DNA from: Aquiluna borgnonia | Lineage (GTDB): Bacteria > Actinomycetota > Actinomycetes > Actinomycetales > Microbacteriaceae | NCBI RefSeq assembly: GCF_013283855.1 | Contig: NZ_CP054056.1 | Location: 868,001-932,000, forward strand | Length of the DNA: 64,000 bases | Direction: 5' to 3' | In this document: piece after piece, positions 7,811-63,321 of the stretch | Numbering within the stretch: the stretch's first letter is position 1 | Layout of the letters: every line of letters begins with the position of its first letter | Position numbers and translations under genes: made by a program | The notes under the pieces: model-generated | The model's database searches: none | Told to the model about the DNA's origin: nothing | The model's input: only the letters and a program-made list of their open reading frames with translations

Positions 7811-7824
7811 CGAACATTTGTTCT
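7811..7824. promoter_or_regulatory. LexA box between the LysM gene and lexA
   Basis: CGAACATTTGTTCT matches the Gram-positive and actinobacterial LexA operator (CGAAC, four bases, GTTCG) with one mismatch at the last base. It lies 23 bases upstream of the LysM gene and 137 upstream of lexA, so it most directly covers the LysM promoter. An extra TGTTCGA (7794–7800) and TCGAACA (7810–7816) form an overlapping inverted repeat. Confidence 0.75.
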
Positions 7825-7888
7825 AAGTATAGAAACTTTTCCGGCAATTTCAAGATTTTCTTTTGAATATCTCGAAAATGTGTTTGGT

Positions 7889-7908
7889 TATTCGTAGTTA
7901 TACGAATA
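7889..7908. repeat. 20-bp perfect palindrome in the lexA upstream region
   Basis: Arms TATTCGTA (7889–7896) and TACGAATA (7901–7908) around GTTA. It lies 53 bases upstream of lexA. It does not have the CGAAC/GTTCG half-sites of LexA and could be an operator for another regulator or part of the lexA promoter; which is unknown. Confidence 0.55.
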
Positions 7909-7960
7909 CAGTTTCGACAGAAGTAGTGAAACAGGGGCCACTGACATTTTTGGAGGGCGC

Positions 7961-8584
7961 ATGGAAAACAGCGAACTAACGGACGTTCAGCAGCGAATTC
8001 TCGAGGTCATCCGGGATTCGATGAATAGACGGAACTACGCCCCCTCGATGCGCGAGATTGGCGAGTCGGTGGGCCTTAGCTCTACCGCCAGCGTTTCGCA
8101 CCAACTCAACAAACTTGAACTTCTCGGTTTCATCAGCCGCGACCCTCGGCGGCCTAGAACCATTGACCTCTTGGGCTCTGAAAGCCCCTCAGGTGAAATC
8201 ATTAGGGCAGACGCGGCAATGGTGCCTCTAGTGGGTCGAATTGCCGCTGGAGGACCAATCACGGCGGAACAAAACGTTGAAGATGTGTTCGCTCTCCCCC
8301 GGCAGCTGGTCGGGCAGGGCGATCTTTTCCTGCTCAAAGTCGTAGGAGAGTCCATGATCGACGCAGCTATTTGCGACGGAGACTGGGTCGTCGTTCGTCA
8401 GCAGCAGTCTGCGGAAAACGGAGACATTGTTGCGGCGCTGCTAGAGGATGAGGCCACAGTAAAGACATTCAAGCAGCGCGATGGACACACCTGGCTGCTT
8501 CCAAGAAATTCAGCATTCGAACCAATCCTCGGAGACCATGCCGTGATTCTCGGCAAGGTAGTTGCCGTCCTCAGGACTGTTTAG
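7961..8584 (+). CDS. lexA: LexA repressor
   Basis: SOS repressor and self-cleaving protease of 207 residues. The N-terminal winged helix-turn-helix covers about residues 1–70 ([24 protein letters not shown]). The cleavage site is Ala96-Gly97 in RIAAGG, the catalytic serine is Ser131 in VGESM and the lysine is Lys168 in EATVKTF. ATG at 7961 follows GGAGGG. The gene is divergent from the LysM gene with a LexA box between them, and its last 14 bases overlap the end of hflX on the other strand. Confidence 0.98.
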
Positions 8585-57961: not shown

Positions 57962-59446
57962 ATGGCTAAAGAAAAAAGCCAGAAGAACCCGCTTGCCAAA
58001 CTCTTTGGCGCGAAGTCCAAGCCTGGGAAATCAACCCGAGCACCTCTGGCTCTGCTAGAGGCAAAGGCCAAGGGAAAGACAATCTCCGATAAGGAGCTGC
58101 AACGCAGCGCTAAGGATCACCTTTGGTTGCACTTCACCCGCCACTCCCCCTTCCAGACCGGTGACATGCTCATAATCGAACGAGCCGAGGGTCACTACCT
58201 TTTCGACTCAAAGGGGAACCGTGTGATTGACGGTCTCAGCGGCCTATTTGCTGCCAATGCCGGCCATGGTCGCCAGGAGCTTGCCGATGCAGCGGCGAAG
58301 CAGATGGTTCAGCTTGATTTCATGCCGCTGTGGGGGCTTGCCTATCCGGGTGCAATTGAATTGGCGGAGCGCTTGCTCAGCTACGCCCCAAAAGACCTAA
58401 ACCGAATCTTCTTCACCACTGGCGGTGGCGAAGCTGTTGAAACCGCTTGGAAAATCGCAAAGCAGTATTTTAAGCTGACCGGAAAACCAACCAAAACCAA
58501 AGTCATTTCCAGGATGACGGCTTACCACGGAACAAGTCACGGGGCTCTTTCGATCACCGGAATTGCAGCCATGAAGGCCGTATTTGAGCCGCTGGTTCCC
58601 TCAACTATTCGCGTTCCCAACACCAACTGGTATCGGAACTCCCACCTCCACGAGAGCGAGGAAGCCTTTGGAATATGGGCTGCCAACCGCGTTGAAGAGG
58701 CGATATTGATGGAGGGACCTGACACGGTTGCCGCTATCTTCGTGGAACCAATTCAGAACTCGGGCGGCTGCTTCACGGCCCACCCTGCCTACTACAAGCG
58801 GCTTCGTGAAATTTGCGATAAGTACGATGTGATTCTGGTCGCCGATGAAACTATCACCGGCTATGGCCGCTCCGGCGAGATGTTTGCGTGCCAAAGGTAC
58901 GGAATTGAGCCCGACATGATGATTACAGCTAAGGCAATCACCTCGGGGGCGCAACCCCTGGGCGCGTTGTTTATGAAGGAGAAATTCTTCGAGCCCTACA
59001 AAGAGGGAACCACAATCCTGCCTCACGGCTACACCTTTGCGGCCCATCCGGTTGCCTGCGCGGTTGCCTTGGCAAACCTGGACATCTACGACAGAGAAAA
59101 GTTGGTGGATAACGTCCGAACCAACTCACCGATCTTCCGTAAGACACTGGAGAAGTTGTACGACCTCCCGATTGTGGGTGATGTGAGAGGCGATGGCTAC
59201 TTCTTCGCCATCGAATTGGTCAAAGACCAGAAGACCAAAGAGACCTTCACCAAAGCTGAGTCAGAGAAGCTCCTCAGAGGGTTTTTGAGTAAGGCCTTGT
59301 ATGACGCTGGTCTTTATGCCCGTGCTGATGACCGAGGCGATCCTGTTGTTCAGGTTGCTCCTCCGCTGACGATGGGTCCCAAGGACTTCGATGAAATGGA
59401 GCGCATAATTCGCCAGGTCCTGAAAGAGGCGTGGAAGCGAATCTAA
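57962..59446 (+). CDS. Class III aminotransferase, probable putrescine–pyruvate type
   Basis: A PLP enzyme of about 494 residues, similar to SpuC-like omega-amine:pyruvate aminotransferases. DGLSGLFAANAGHGRQEL, FFTTGGGEAVETAWKIA, MTAYHGTSHGALS, Asp in VADETITGYGRSG and PLP lysine in MITAKAITSGAQPLG. A Lys-rich N-terminal extension of about 40 residues precedes the core. ATG 57962 is chosen over GTG 57953. The last 173 bases overlap the convergent P-loop gene. It would start putrescine breakdown; beta-alanine or other amines are alternatives. Confidence 0.85.
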   Translation: MAKEKSQKNPLAKLFGAKSKPGKSTRAPLALLEAKAKGKTISDKELQRSAKDHLWLHFTRHSPFQTGDMLIIERAEGHYLFDSKGNRVIDGLSGLFAANAGHGRQELADAAAKQMVQLDFMPLWGLAYPGAIELAERLLSYAPKDLNRIFFTTGGGEAVETAWKIAKQYFKLTGKPTKTKVISRMTAYHGTSHGALSITGIAAMKAVFEPLVPSTIRVPNTNWYRNSHLHESEEAFGIWAANRVEEAILMEGPDTVAAIFVEPIQNSGGCFTAHPAYYKRLREICDKYDVILVADETITGYGRSGEMFACQRYGIEPDMMITAKAITSGAQPLGALFMKEKFFEPYKEGTTILPHGYTFAAHPVACAVALANLDIYDREKLVDNVRTNSPIFRKTLEKLYDLPIVGDVRGDGYFFAIELVKDQKTKETFTKAESEKLLRGFLSKALYDAGLYARADDRGDPVVQVAPPLTMGPKDFDEMERIIRQVLKEAWKRI

Positions 59447-60266
59447 CATCCTCATCTGATTTGTAATCTGAGCGGGCGGGTGAAAAAGAGACGAGCTTGC
59501 CTTGCTTTCCGGCCACAAAGACAGCGCCGTTTACTGACAGGGATTCGGCGGTCCGATTCCAAGTTTCAGAGTGCGCAGGGCTCAGTTCCACACGTAAACC
59601 AAAATTTAGTGAATCCCGCTGGTCCAAAAGCCACGGCTGCTGGGTGACCAGAAGCGCCTGCATCTCGAGCATTGACCCGATTCTGACTATGTCCAAGACT
59701 TGCTCAAGAAACTCAGGTTCTCTAATGGATCGCTCAAGAGCGTCAAAGATTATTAGCAAAGGTTCGCTAGCACGTTGCTGAGACCGGCGCTCAATTTCGC
59801 TGCTCATGCGCTCTAGAAAGGCCGATGGGTGCAAAGCTTTTGTAGCAAAGCCGTAGGAGGGGGACAGCCTTTGAGGAAACTCCGTCACCAGCAAGACCTC
59901 GCCCTGAAAAGTGCCACCGATTTCACGTGCCAGAGTGGTCTTACCGCTTCCGGTCGGCCCGACTACCAGCCCGTGGAAAACAACATGGTTCAGCGGGTTT
60001 GTTATAAATTCTCCGGAATCAAGTTCGAACAGCGACCCCGCCGGCATATCCCGTCGAGCCTCATCATCGGTGGGCAAAGCCTCGGACTGGGCGGATATGG
60101 GACTGCTAATAATTTTTCGCCAGACTCTCGAAAAGTTATCAAGGGCAATTTTCGTCGCCAAACCCTGGCGCGCTGATCTAGCTCGCTTAGCCCTCAGGAT
60201 GAGAGCTGTAGCCACCAGCACCAGTGAGAGGGTCGTTAGGGCGAATATCAGAGTAAGAATGTCCAT
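59274..60266 (-). CDS. Membrane-anchored P-loop ATPase of unknown function
   Basis: A 330-residue protein I cannot place in a named family. One N-terminal membrane segment (about 3–25), a basic stretch, then a P-loop domain with Walker A VVGPTGSGKTTLAREI and Walker B PLLIIFDALERS; QALLVTQQPWLLD looks like a sensor region, as in FtsK/HerA/TraG-type ATPases. The last 57 residues are antisense to the conserved end of the aminotransferase and are polar (many Gln, His, Arg), so the C-terminus may have been extended by loss of a stop. It is divergent from ogt, with an inverted pair of DnaA-box matches in between. Confidence 0.7.
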   Translation of the reverse strand: MDILTLIFALTTLSLVLVATALILRAKRARSARQGLATKIALDNFSRVWRKIISSPISAQSEALPTDDEARRDMPAGSLFELDSGEFITNPLNHVVFHGLVVGPTGSGKTTLAREIGGTFQGEVLLVTEFPQRLSPSYGFATKALHPSAFLERMSSEIERRSQQRASEPLLIIFDALERSIREPEFLEQVLDIVRIGSMLEMQALLVTQQPWLLDQRDSLNFGLRVELSPAHSETWNRTAESLSVNGAVFVAGKQGKLVSFSPARSDYKSDEDVRFASTPLSGPGELCAPFHRSPWDPSSAEEQPEQQDRLGHQHGHKDQRHTRPYSKTL

Positions 60267-60310
60267 CCGCCAAGGATTGCGCCCACCGTCTCGGCTAATG
60301 AACCACGAAG

Positions 60311-60344
60311 AGAAATTGTGGATAACTAGTTATGCACAATTTCT
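60311..60344. promoter_or_regulatory. 34-bp palindrome made of two inverted DnaA-box matches
   Basis: Outer arms AGAAATTGTG (60311–60320) and CACAATTTCT (60335–60344) and an inner ATAACTAGTTAT pair perfectly, with one mismatched pair (60321/60334). Inside are TGTGGATAA (60317–60325, the complement of TTATCCACA) and TTATGCACA (60330–60338), both matching the DnaA-box consensus TTWTNCACA, head to head with a CTAG spacer. The centre is equidistant from the two divergent start codons. Confidence 0.75.
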
Positions 60345-60388
60345 GACTGTGTCGTTTTCGCTCAAATACGATTCGCCATACTTTAGCC

Positions 60389-60889
60389 ATGGACTCAATT
60401 TTGCAGGCAAGCGTAAGTTTTGACTCTCCACTGGGTCGACTGAGGGTGGGAGCAACCACCAAGGGCCTAAGTGCAGTGGACTTCGTCAGTCATACTGGCG
60501 GGCCGTTGGACTTCAGTGGGGACCCAACCGCCCGCGAACACTGCCTGGCTGCTCGCGACTGGCTGGAGCGCTACTTTGAGGGAGAGCAAAACCCCTATGG
60601 GGGCTCTCTAGATTTGCAGGGAACTGTTTTTCAGCAGGAGGTATGGGCTCAGATCAGCCGTGCGGGTTTCGGGGAGACGCTAACCTACGGCGAAATTGCT
60701 TCCTCCATAATGCGGCCCTTGGCCTCAAGGGCTGTTGGGGCAGCCGTGGGAGCAAACCCGGTCCCCCTCGTTATTCCCTGTCATCGCGTTCTCGGTTCTG
60801 GAGGGAAAATCACCGGTTATTCCGGAGGGGAAGGCATCCCCACCAAACAAAAGCTTCTCAAGCTTGAGGGAATCGAATACCTGGCATGA
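60389..60889 (+). CDS. ogt: Methylated-DNA–protein-cysteine methyltransferase
   Basis: Suicide repair enzyme for O6-alkylguanine, 166 residues. The acceptor cysteine is in VIPCHRVLG; the helix-turn-helix and arginine finger are in TLTYGEIASSIMRPLASRAVG. No Ada regulatory domain. ATG 60389; CATACT ends six bases upstream, consistent with a leaderless mRNA. Its stop overlaps the tag start by four bases (ATGA), forming a two-gene alkylation-repair operon. Confidence 0.96.
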   Translation: MDSILQASVSFDSPLGRLRVGATTKGLSAVDFVSHTGGPLDFSGDPTAREHCLAARDWLERYFEGEQNPYGGSLDLQGTVFQQEVWAQISRAGFGETLTYGEIASSIMRPLASRAVGAAVGANPVPLVIPCHRVLGSGGKITGYSGGEGIPTKQKLLKLEGIEYLA

Positions 60890-61452
60890 GTCACACCAGG
60901 GTGCACAGTGACGGGATTGAGCGTTGCAACTGGGTAACTAATGACCAGATTTACATCGAATACCACGATCGCGAGTGGGGCACGCCAAACCGCAATCACC
61001 AGCAACTCTTTGAAGCGATATGCCTGGAGAGTTTTCAAGCGGGGTTGAGCTGGTTGACCATTCTGAAGCGCCGCGAAGGGTTCCGAAGCGCATTCGAAGG
61101 TTTTGAAGTAGATGTGGTGGCTCAATTCGATGAACTGAAAATCGAATCACTCATGCAGAATCCAGAAATCATCAGAAATCGGGCCAAAATTCAGTCAGCA
61201 GTAAAAAATGCACGAGTTGTCCTAGATCGCCAAATTGACCTGGTTGAGCTTGTTTGGAGATTCGCCCCAGACCCTATTGCTAAGCATCCAGAGACTTTTG
61301 CATGGAGAGCCACAAGTGCTGAGTCCGACGCCCTAAGCAGGGAGCTGAAAAAACTGGGGTTTAGCTTCGTTGGTTCCACCACAATGTATGCCCTGATGCA
61401 GTCCAGCGGTTTGATTCAGGACCACGCTCCCGGTTGTTTTCGCAATTTGTGA
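60886..61452 (+). CDS. tag: DNA-3-methyladenine glycosylase I
   Basis: Removes 3-methyladenine from DNA, 188 residues. Zinc ligands are probably the Cys in ERCNWV near the N-terminus, a nearby His, and the His/Cys in DHAPGCF at the C-terminus. EYHDREWG and LSWLTILKRREGFR are family motifs. Coupled to ogt. Confidence 0.95.
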   Translation: MSHTRVHSDGIERCNWVTNDQIYIEYHDREWGTPNRNHQQLFEAICLESFQAGLSWLTILKRREGFRSAFEGFEVDVVAQFDELKIESLMQNPEIIRNRAKIQSAVKNARVVLDRQIDLVELVWRFAPDPIAKHPETFAWRATSAESDALSRELKKLGFSFVGSTTMYALMQSSGLIQDHAPGCFRNL

Positions 61453-61493: not shown

Positions 61494-61976
61494 ATGACTG
61501 AACAAGAATTCAACGAACTTTTCCGAGCGCAGCAAGCGGAGCTGACACGCTTCACAACCCGACGCGCGCCAGTGGAGGACGTAGAGGATTTACTCAGTGA
61601 TTTGTTCGCTCTAGCCTGGCAAAAGCGTGACCTCATCCCAAGGGGCTTGGAGCTCCCCTGGCTCTATAAGTCTGCAAGATTTTTGATTTCCAACCACAAC
61701 CGGAAGCAGGCGGGACGGCGAATAATTCTTTCCACCCTGCGGGAACCAGAGTGTGCGCCGAGTGCCGAATCGATCGCCCTCGCCGACGTCTCCCTGGCCG
61801 CTGCCTGGAAACGGATAGCTCCGAGGGAGCAGGAAATCATCTCGCTGTGGGCCTTTGAGGGCCTGGAGGTAGCCGAAATCGCAACCGTGCTCGGTAGGAG
61901 CAAAAATGCGATTGCCATTGCCCTAAGCCGCGCAAAAAGCCGACTGGCCCAAGAACTTGAAATTGAAAATAACTAG
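61494..61976 (+). CDS. ECF-type RNA polymerase sigma factor
   Basis: A 160-residue group 4 sigma factor. Region 2 spans about 5–70 (EDVEDLLSDLFALAWQKRD, then LPWLYKSARFLISNHNRKQ) and region 4 about 100–155 (ISLWAFEGLEVAEIATVLGR, SKNAIAIALSRAKSRL). GGGAGA precedes the ATG. A membrane protein follows after 16 bases, presumably its regulator. I see no clear ECF promoter motif in the short upstream gap. Confidence 0.9.
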   Translation: MTEQEFNELFRAQQAELTRFTTRRAPVEDVEDLLSDLFALAWQKRDLIPRGLELPWLYKSARFLISNHNRKQAGRRIILSTLREPECAPSAESIALADVSLAAAWKRIAPREQEIISLWAFEGLEVAEIATVLGRSKNAIAIALSRAKSRLAQELEIENN

Positions 61977-61992
61977 GATCTGGTGACACATT

Positions 61993-63321
61993 ATGGATAT
62001 GGATAAAGAACAAGAGCTTCGCCATCGAATCGCTAACGCAGATCCCGCGCAGGAAGTTGCCCTGCCAGAAAACCTCTTTGATCAAGCTCGGTCTCGAAAA
62101 CCTCAGAGGCAGCCGAACCCTCGCTCCCTGCAAATTGGAATTGGCGGGATGGCACTGGCGTCCCTAGCTCTAGTTTCAGCTCTGACAATCCCGCAGCTGC
62201 TAAAACCGGCTCCACTTTTCACCCTAGCCGCGGGTGGCTCCAGTATCAATGCAGCAGCAGAGACCGCACAGATGGCAGCTGACGCCAAGGCGACCATGTA
62301 TTGGCCTGGATACATTGAGTATCAGCACACCGCCGACGGGCTATCCGATCAGGGCGGAAAGGGAAAGATTTATCAGGCCCAACTGGTTGGTGCGCCGACT
62401 CAGATCCTAGAAAAGCTGATGGCCTACTTCGGCGTTTCTGGCGAGATCAAGCGTGATGAATGGGCCACCGACCTTTACCCCAGTTACAGTGTCCAATCTA
62501 AAACTGGAACCGTTGAGACATACCTGAGCATCTACTGGTCAGGCACTGGAAACTGGAACTACTCACAGTACGACTCCAGCCTCTGGGCCTGCAGTGCGAC
62601 GGAATCTTCCGACTCTGAGAACCAAACGGAAGTTTGTGAGAGCCCTAAACCAACCCCTGAACTCATTCCAACCAAAGAGGAGATGGAAAGCCAGGCCAGA
62701 GCCATTTTCGAGGGCCTTGGTGTTACAACAGCCGGCCTCACCTTCAAATCCTTCAGGGATGATTGGGGCGGTTCAGTTTATGCAGATATGAGCCATGAGG
62801 GCATGACACTTCCAGTGGCTCTCTCCGTCGGCTGGGATTCACGCGGAGAAATTTCATTTGTCTCGGGAGCTAGCTTTGAGATGGTCGAGCGAGGAGAGTT
62901 CAACACAGTCTCTCCGCTAGAAGCTATGAATCGCATTAAAGCCGGCTCCTGGTATGGCTCTCCCCCATCCAGTTACTACGAGAACCAAAGTGTTGGAATC
63001 GCACGCGATTCTGCAATTGCGACCGAGGACATTGCTACCGAGGCTGTGGAAGCGGTCGACTCCATCGCTGTGGACGAACCAGCTCCGGACACTCCAGTTG
63101 AACCACAGATTGTGCAGTTAGTCGTCAACCGATCCGAGGCCGCAATGCTCGGAGTTTGGGACAGCGTGGGAGGTTTCTGGCTGGTCCCCGGCTACGTGCT
63201 GTTCAATGACCAGGGATGGTTCGACTCGATTATCGCCCTGGAAGAAGGCGTCATTGAGCTTCCAAAGTACGAGGAAGTAATGCCTTTGATTGAGCCAGCT
63301 CCCCTAACCAAGGAGGACTAA
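61993..63321 (+). CDS. Membrane protein partnered with the ECF sigma factor
   Basis: A 442-residue protein with a short cytoplasmic N-terminus (about 1–45, LRHRIANADPAQEVALPENL), one membrane segment (about 48–70) and a large outside domain of about 370 residues. The leader-like ADPA segment is seen in actinobacterial proteins encoded after ECF sigma genes. It has no zinc-binding anti-sigma motif. The outside part is rich in aromatic residues and contains one probable disulfide pair (WACSATESS and TEVCESPK); near the C-terminus is a long Asp/Glu/Ala-rich stretch. It may restrain the sigma factor or sense the envelope; no named family recognised outside the membrane. Confidence 0.72.
   Translation: MDMDKEQELRHRIANADPAQEVALPENLFDQARSRKPQRQPNPRSLQIGIGGMALASLALVSALTIPQLLKPAPLFTLAAGGSSINAAAETAQMAADAKATMYWPGYIEYQHTADGLSDQGGKGKIYQAQLVGAPTQILEKLMAYFGVSGEIKRDEWATDLYPSYSVQSKTGTVETYLSIYWSGTGNWNYSQYDSSLWACSATESSDSENQTEVCESPKPTPELIPTKEEMESQARAIFEGLGVTTAGLTFKSFRDDWGGSVYADMSHEGMTLPVALSVGWDSRGEISFVSGASFEMVERGEFNTVSPLEAMNRIKAGSWYGSPPSSYYENQSVGIARDSAIATEDIATEAVEAVDSIAVDEPAPDTPVEPQIVQLVVNRSEAAMLGVWDSVGGFWLVPGYVLFNDQGWFDSIIALEEGVIELPKYEEVMPLIEPAPLTKED

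Follow-up and report, generated by a model that had tools for sequence, protein, structure and literature searches.

Comparison of 22 genomes of the genus indicates that the palindrome upstream of ogt is composed of two independent single-box promoter elements placed back to back, and is not one functional unit. Each element would consist of one DnaA box that points to the gene it serves, with its centre some 55 bp ahead of a leaderless-type start carrying only a -10 element. Bound DnaA would most likely act from there as an activator of both the ogt-tag operon and the divergent ATPase gene, a reading that we consider moderately probable. The coordinates of the features are given in Table 1.

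Table 1. Features of the ogt upstream region, numbered from the first nucleotide of the window
Feature	Position	Strand	Remarks
34-bp palindrome, two back-to-back single-box promoter elements	60311..60344	.	
DnaA box TTATGCACA facing ogt	60330..60338	+	centre 60334, 55 bp before ogt ATG
DnaA box TTATCCACA facing the divergent ATPase gene	60317..60325	-	centre 60321, 55 bp before ATPase ATG
Putative -10 (CATACT) of the leaderless ogt promoter	60377..60382	+	no recognisable -35
Putative -10 (AATCCT) of the leaderless ATPase promoter	60273..60278	-	
ogt, O6-methylguanine-DNA methyltransferase	60389..60889	+	Pfam PF01035, 5.3e-29; NCBIfam TIGR00589
tag, 3-methyladenine-DNA glycosylase I	60886..61452	+	Pfam PF03352, 2.5e-65
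Divergent membrane P-loop ATPase	59274..60266	-	AAA_22 match at its cut-off

In the window, which is the whole stretch of 64,000 nucleotides analysed, positions 60311 to 60344 read AGAAATTGTGGATAACTAGTTATGCACAATTTCT, a palindrome of 34 bp in which one pair is mismatched. No other zero-gap palindrome of the window has 17-bp arms and up to two mismatched pairs. The two boxes are arranged head to head with a 4-bp gap in this genome (G000), and they are the only matches to TTATNCACA in the window (60317-60325 and 60330-60338). Both the palindrome and the box pair agreed with the original prediction, as did the placing of the palindrome centre midway between the start codons at 60266 and 60389. The distances from the box centres to their own start codons (60321 to 60266 and 60334 to 60389) are exactly 55 bp each, and it is because each box lies about 55 bp from its own start that the centre falls at the midpoint. 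Head-to-head pairs within 18 bp were found once in the window and in 0 of 200 first-order Markov windows. Single-box matches had an expected mean of 0.71; since 15 of 100 shuffles reached at least two matches, the number of boxes alone is unremarkable. The search for further copies that had been proposed was carried out, and the 24-bp core of the palindrome had no second copy with up to three mismatches in the 1,362,706-bp genome. By eye, the outermost 6 bp of the palindrome arms (AGAAAT/ATTTCT) were not conserved in relatives.

The ogt and tag genes overlap by 4 bp, and the tag product matched TIGR00624 with an E value of 2.1e-64, under the cut-off of that family (216.5 of 232.5 bits). The family matches of the divergent ATPase itself were weak, the AAA_22 match standing at its cut-off, and its relatives in the genus gave weak matches to FtsK_SpoIIIE, TrwB, EccC and the DNA-import ATPase CedB. 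A P-loop was present in 11 of the 12 divergent proteins of the genus, the protein of G020 being the one without it, and BLASTP with the G000 protein matched 10 of the 11 others at 24 to 43% identity. We read the divergent gene as encoding a fast-evolving FtsK/HerA-like DNA-pump ATPase. Directly past tag, at 61494-63321 of the window, lie a sigma-70 region 4 gene (ECF-like) and then a gene without Pfam matches.

To follow the ogt-facing box across the genus, its upstream regions were compared in the 20 of 22 genomes in which ogt was located. The start codons of ogt and of the ATPase gene were chosen by us, and for ogt, among several possible codons, the one just after a -10-like hexamer was taken. 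A box facing ogt (TTNTNCACA) was present in 18 of the 20 genomes, its centre lying at -54 to -58 of the start codon in 14 of them and at -45/-46, approximately one helical turn nearer the start, in 4. TTWTNCACA was found within 150 bp of ogt in 18 of 20 genomes; dinucleotide shuffles averaged 0.30 such genomes, and the highest count in 500 of them was 2. In G016 a degenerate GTTTCCACA was found at -58 of ogt, and in G020 there was no box facing ogt. When the boxes were masked, the ogt upstream regions formed 15 groups at 75% identity, with a median identity of 0.58 (0.57 for shuffled regions). Since the masked regions drift to near-shuffled identity, the boxes do not simply reflect shared ancestry. 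Both the match of the box to the consensus and its conservation at the orthologous promoter (18/20, in a fixed register) are as in a DnaA-regulated promoter.

The second box was found to track the divergent gene. An ATPase-type gene diverges from ogt in 12 of the 20 genomes, and in 11 of these 12 a box faces it 54 to 56 bp before its start: at 55 bp in G000, G003, G012, G018, G017, G002 and G001, at 56 bp in G006, G010 and G005, and at 54 bp in G020. The first in-frame ATG served as the start in nine of these 11 genomes; for G012 the second ATG was used and for G020 a GTG. The first ATG of G012 would give 40 bp, and in G017 and G018, which are closely related to G012, the ATG used is the only one. 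G019 has the divergent gene and no box facing it. In the 8 genomes whose upstream gene runs in the same direction as ogt, no away-facing box was found within 220 bp, and these genomes, lacking the divergent gene, carried at most one box each. The head-to-head pair occurred in 8 of the 22 genomes, once in each and always before ogt (the reversed control pattern gave 0), with a gap of 1, 3, 4, 14 or 15 bp; in G006 it forms a perfect 23-bp palindrome. Because the presence of each box follows the gene that it faces and not the other box, and because the gap ranges between 1 and 15 bp, the palindrome is not supported as a regulatory unit. As for the conservation in close relatives on which the original prediction had been staked, the boxes are kept at fixed distances from their genes, but their mutual spacing is not. 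DnaA-type control of the repair operon and the ATPase gene, as had been proposed, accords with the DnaA type of the boxes and with one kind of control that is probably common to both genes, but not with the palindrome as its unit.

The promoters were then aligned on the start codon. In the ogt set, A was found at -11 in 13 of 20 and T at -7 in 18 of 20, and in the ATPase set each of these was found in 11 of 12. If the transcript begins at the start codon, A-11 and T-7 are the two most critical positions of the -10 element. The whole -10 hexamer of the ATPase set was no better than in shuffled sequences (2.92 each), and the -35 was no better than shuffled in the ogt and ATPase sets (2.25 versus 2.49 and 2.44 matches of 6). 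Both promoters look leaderless and without a -35, the leaderless starts being presumed; for ogt, this appearance is in part the result of choice, since its starts were partly picked by the -10-like hexamer. The combination of an upstream site in constant position, a second possible position one helical turn closer and no -35 would be expected of an activator in contact with RNA polymerase. In the mechanism proposed, DnaA bound at -55 would contact RNA polymerase, and this contact would activate the ogt-tag operon in one direction and the gene for the FtsK/HerA-like ATPase in the other, so that the expression of both would depend on the DnaA level or its ATP state.

Boxes of the same class were found in G000 in the dnaA promoter, in the dnaA-dnaN gap and before dnaB. 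These share with the ogt and ATPase boxes the 9-mer class and the flank preferences; they differ in that each of those sites has several boxes, whereas the ogt and ATPase promoters have one box each. Tandem pairs occurred in 21 of the 22 genomes. Those of G000 are confined to the dnaA upstream region, the dnaA-dnaN gap and the dnaB upstream region, and four or more pairs of other genomes seem to be located elsewhere than at dnaA, dnaN or dnaB. Tail-to-tail pairs occurred once in each of 15 of the 22 genomes; that of G000, the only one placed individually, is in the dnaA promoter. At the dnaB site of G000 (genome positions 1348134-1348307), six DnaA boxes are packed into roughly 170 bp upstream of dnaB (PF03796, 1.4e-92), and this cluster is about 14.5 kb away from the start of the genome, the site of dnaA. 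Several relatives have tandem boxes at a similar distance from dnaA-type boxes.

The identity of the protein reading the boxes was judged from their flanks. In the boxes of the tandem-pair regions, mostly those of dnaA, dnaN and dnaB, A occupied -6 in 37 of 61, G occupied -5 in 33 and R occupied +5 in 57; boxes that had a tandem neighbour had been removed from this set, and the flank positions were not used in finding the sites. The ogt and ATPase boxes gave 19, 17 and 28 of 29, respectively, and the mostly coding chance sites of G000 gave 6, 11 and 22 of 39. Fisher p values for the ogt and ATPase boxes versus the mostly coding sites were 3e-5 (A at -6), 0.014 (G at -5) and 0.0065 (G at +5), which are rough and overstate independence, since the distinct 25-mer sites come from related genomes. 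The variation within the ogt and ATPase boxes (A, T or C at position 3 and mostly C at position 5) was also in agreement with that of the dnaA, dnaN and dnaB boxes. The boxes thus show an origin-type site preference that extends beyond the 9-mer. Given that the flank preferences match those of the dnaA, dnaN and dnaB boxes and differ from those of mostly coding sites, DnaA is the likeliest reader of the ogt and ATPase boxes.

Further promoters in the genus were inspected for the same element. The pattern TTATCCACA-N48..54-ATG gave 59 rows in the 22 genomes and 3 with the reversed control; since 59 is close to our own rough chance estimate of about 55, no excess is claimed, and the pattern is not obviously in excess genome-wide. 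For dprA, 20 loci were found and 18 were read, the partial locus of G005 and that of G009 being left out. Eight of the 18 promoters had TTATCCACA or TTCTCCACA, which lay at -55/-56 in four genomes, nine had by eye a CAACA variant in place of CCACA, which is a poor DnaA box, and one was degenerate; counting TTCTCCACA, a TTWTCMACAG-like element precedes dprA in 17 of the 18 readable genomes. The nadK-recN locus was dropped as a target. Of 18 loci, 17 were readable (G002 was left out), and 6 of these had TGTGGATAA at -72/-69 of nadK. The match lies in the apparent coding end of the preceding gene, which we take to be tlyA-like, and it was absent where the neighbour differs. In G000, boxes were also carried by an SSB paralogue, MerR and antitoxin-like genes (crude ORF calling, longest first), and among these promoters only the RHH-like one clearly recurs, by matched strings, so that these genes count as leads. 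This small antitoxin-like gene (genome positions 66856-66918; RHH-like by eye, with a weak DUF6290 match) has TTATCCACAGATTT about 55 bp upstream, and similar strings were found in 6 other genomes, with TGATACC repeats.

Outside the genus, 66 of 195 Microbacteriaceae genomes, picked by us among small genomes and high scorers, were read, and 54 of them had an assignable ogt start; the counts include a few upstream windows, for example those of G144 and G154, that seem to be wrongly placed. The TTNTNCACA box was found within 200 bp of ogt in 9 of the 66 (0.89 expected) and TTWTNCACA within the same distance in 3 (0.33 expected). Near-matches with at least 6 of 7 letters before ogt in the 54 genomes fell at -55 to -57 in 10 cases, at -81 to -84 in 11 and elsewhere in 4, and those in reverse orientation numbered 6 and were scattered. 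A putative Rhodoluna lacicola genome had TTCTCCACA at exactly -55 of ogt, and no such box was found in the stretch read upstream of ogt in a putative Aurantimicrobium minutum genome (G102). Many high-GC relatives had TCCTCCCCA, a poor DnaA box, near -83 of ogt. The ogt promoters of other Microbacteriaceae also contained TGTCCGA centred at -46/-47, with 26 matches in the 54 genomes.

GTCRS-N9..12-TANNNT, which we take to correspond approximately to the PafBC motif, was found before ogt in 25 of the 66 other Microbacteriaceae (0.9 expected) and in 0 of the 20 genomes of the genus (0.36 expected). Thus, a motif similar to that of the PafBC (RecA-NDp) damage promoters of mycobacteria is found at ogt elsewhere in the family, in contrast to its absence from the ogt promoters of the genus. 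A LexA DNA-binding domain was present in 21 of the 22 genus genomes. The ogt gap contained no copy of GAACNNNNGTTC, presumably the LexA SOS-box motif, whose copies in the window were only at 7812 and 26100, and a LexA SOS promoter at ogt was discarded for that reason. The window carries lexA at 7812-8581, with the SOS-box-like GAACATTTGTTC just upstream.

A different activator could read this DnaA-box-like site and control repair and DNA-uptake genes (ogt-tag, the FtsK-like ATPase gene and dprA), which we regard as rather doubtful. The dprA elements are TTWTCAACAG in 9 of the 18 readable genomes (by eye), and the element near -83 in other genera is often TCCTCCMCA (15 matches at -81 to -85 in the 54 genomes), which is unlike a DnaA box. 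Set against this, the dnaA, dnaN and dnaB boxes, unlike mostly coding sites, agree with these boxes in their flanks and in how positions 3 and 5 vary. It is also general knowledge that DnaA typically binds a lone 9-mer without symmetry, and that dimeric regulators seldom use such a site. Single boxes are weak targets of DnaA in E. coli (PMC11317965), which would speak for another reader; the protein there favours double boxes 2 to 3 bp apart, and only 13 of its 32 consensus TTATCCACA sites lie within detected DnaA-bound regions, according to the same source. The G000 boxes, head to head with a 4-bp gap, do not form such a double box, which is an E. coli preference and not a definition. If DnaA is the reader, it could instead act as a repressor, lowering ogt and ATPase expression at high DnaA-ATP. 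This appears improbable, since DnaA at -55 would not cover the core promoter and the lack of a -35 is more in keeping with activation; in its favor, uvrB is repressed by DnaA in E. coli (PMC6015884), and the -45 class of boxes lies close to the -35 region.

The near-perfect symmetry in G000 and the perfect 23-bp palindrome in G006 would be in accordance with a single operator for a dimeric regulator, as the original prediction had allowed. Nevertheless, neither fixed spacing nor joint presence of the half-sites was found: the gap takes values of 1, 3, 4, 14 or 15 bp, half of the element is absent where one gene is absent, and the outer arms are not conserved. The variable gaps and the loss of a half-element with its gene led us to reject this reading, to which we attach very little weight. 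A site for titration or reactivation of DnaA (datA/DARS-like) seems equally improbable. Two consensus-like boxes would suit it, but there are only one or two boxes, held at a fixed distance from and in a fixed orientation to two start codons, where a several-box cluster with no tie to start codons would be typical, and a denser cluster, of six boxes, lies elsewhere, upstream of dnaB. Activation by DnaA fits better than titration or a dimer operator because of the fixed distance and the missing -35, and any link to the cell cycle would be putative.

DnaA is an established regulator of the E. coli repair and replication genes uvrB and polA (PMC8203912), and DnaA boxes likewise lie before repair or replication genes at E. 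coli uvrB, polA, nrdA and mutH/DARS2 (PMC8203912, PMC11317965). The E. coli promoters differ from the present layout, in which a leaderless-type promoter with only a -10 has one box at a constant -55. This layout occurs twice, in back-to-back orientation and without a tandem double box, and the target is an alkylation-repair operon. In the literature searched, no report was found of DnaA boxes at ogt, at dprA or in Microbacteriaceae. A DnaA-box promoter for ogt-tag would thus be a new target, DnaA control of repair genes being already known.

More tentatively, it is possible that in this streamlined freshwater lineage DnaA serves as a class-I-like activator of leaderless promoters, bound to one box near -55 of each, and so runs a small regulon (ogt-tag, the FtsK/HerA-like ATPase gene, dprA and toxin-antitoxin genes). 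Such a regulon might span repair, DNA uptake and mobile DNA, in contrast to the PafBC-like ogt promoter found in 25 of 66 other Microbacteriaceae and in none of the genus, and in a lineage related to naturally transformable strains. Rhodoluna lacicola and Aurantimicrobium photophilum are naturally transformable, according to PMC11577799, and for R. lacicola an increase of putative competence genes in darkness is described in PMC8591293. The dprA lead is therefore testable, and the transformability of R. lacicola also makes a test of the ogt box practical.

That both boxes keep one and the same spacing to the gene they face suggests a coupling of DNA repair to DnaA in these freshwater bacteria. 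What determines whether DnaA activates or represses is listed as an open question in PMC8203912, and activation of ogt-tag by DnaA, if true, would provide a simple rule, one box in one place, that bears on it. If DnaA activates ogt-tag from -55, the amount or ATP state of the initiator would set how much alkylation repair is available at the time of fork start.
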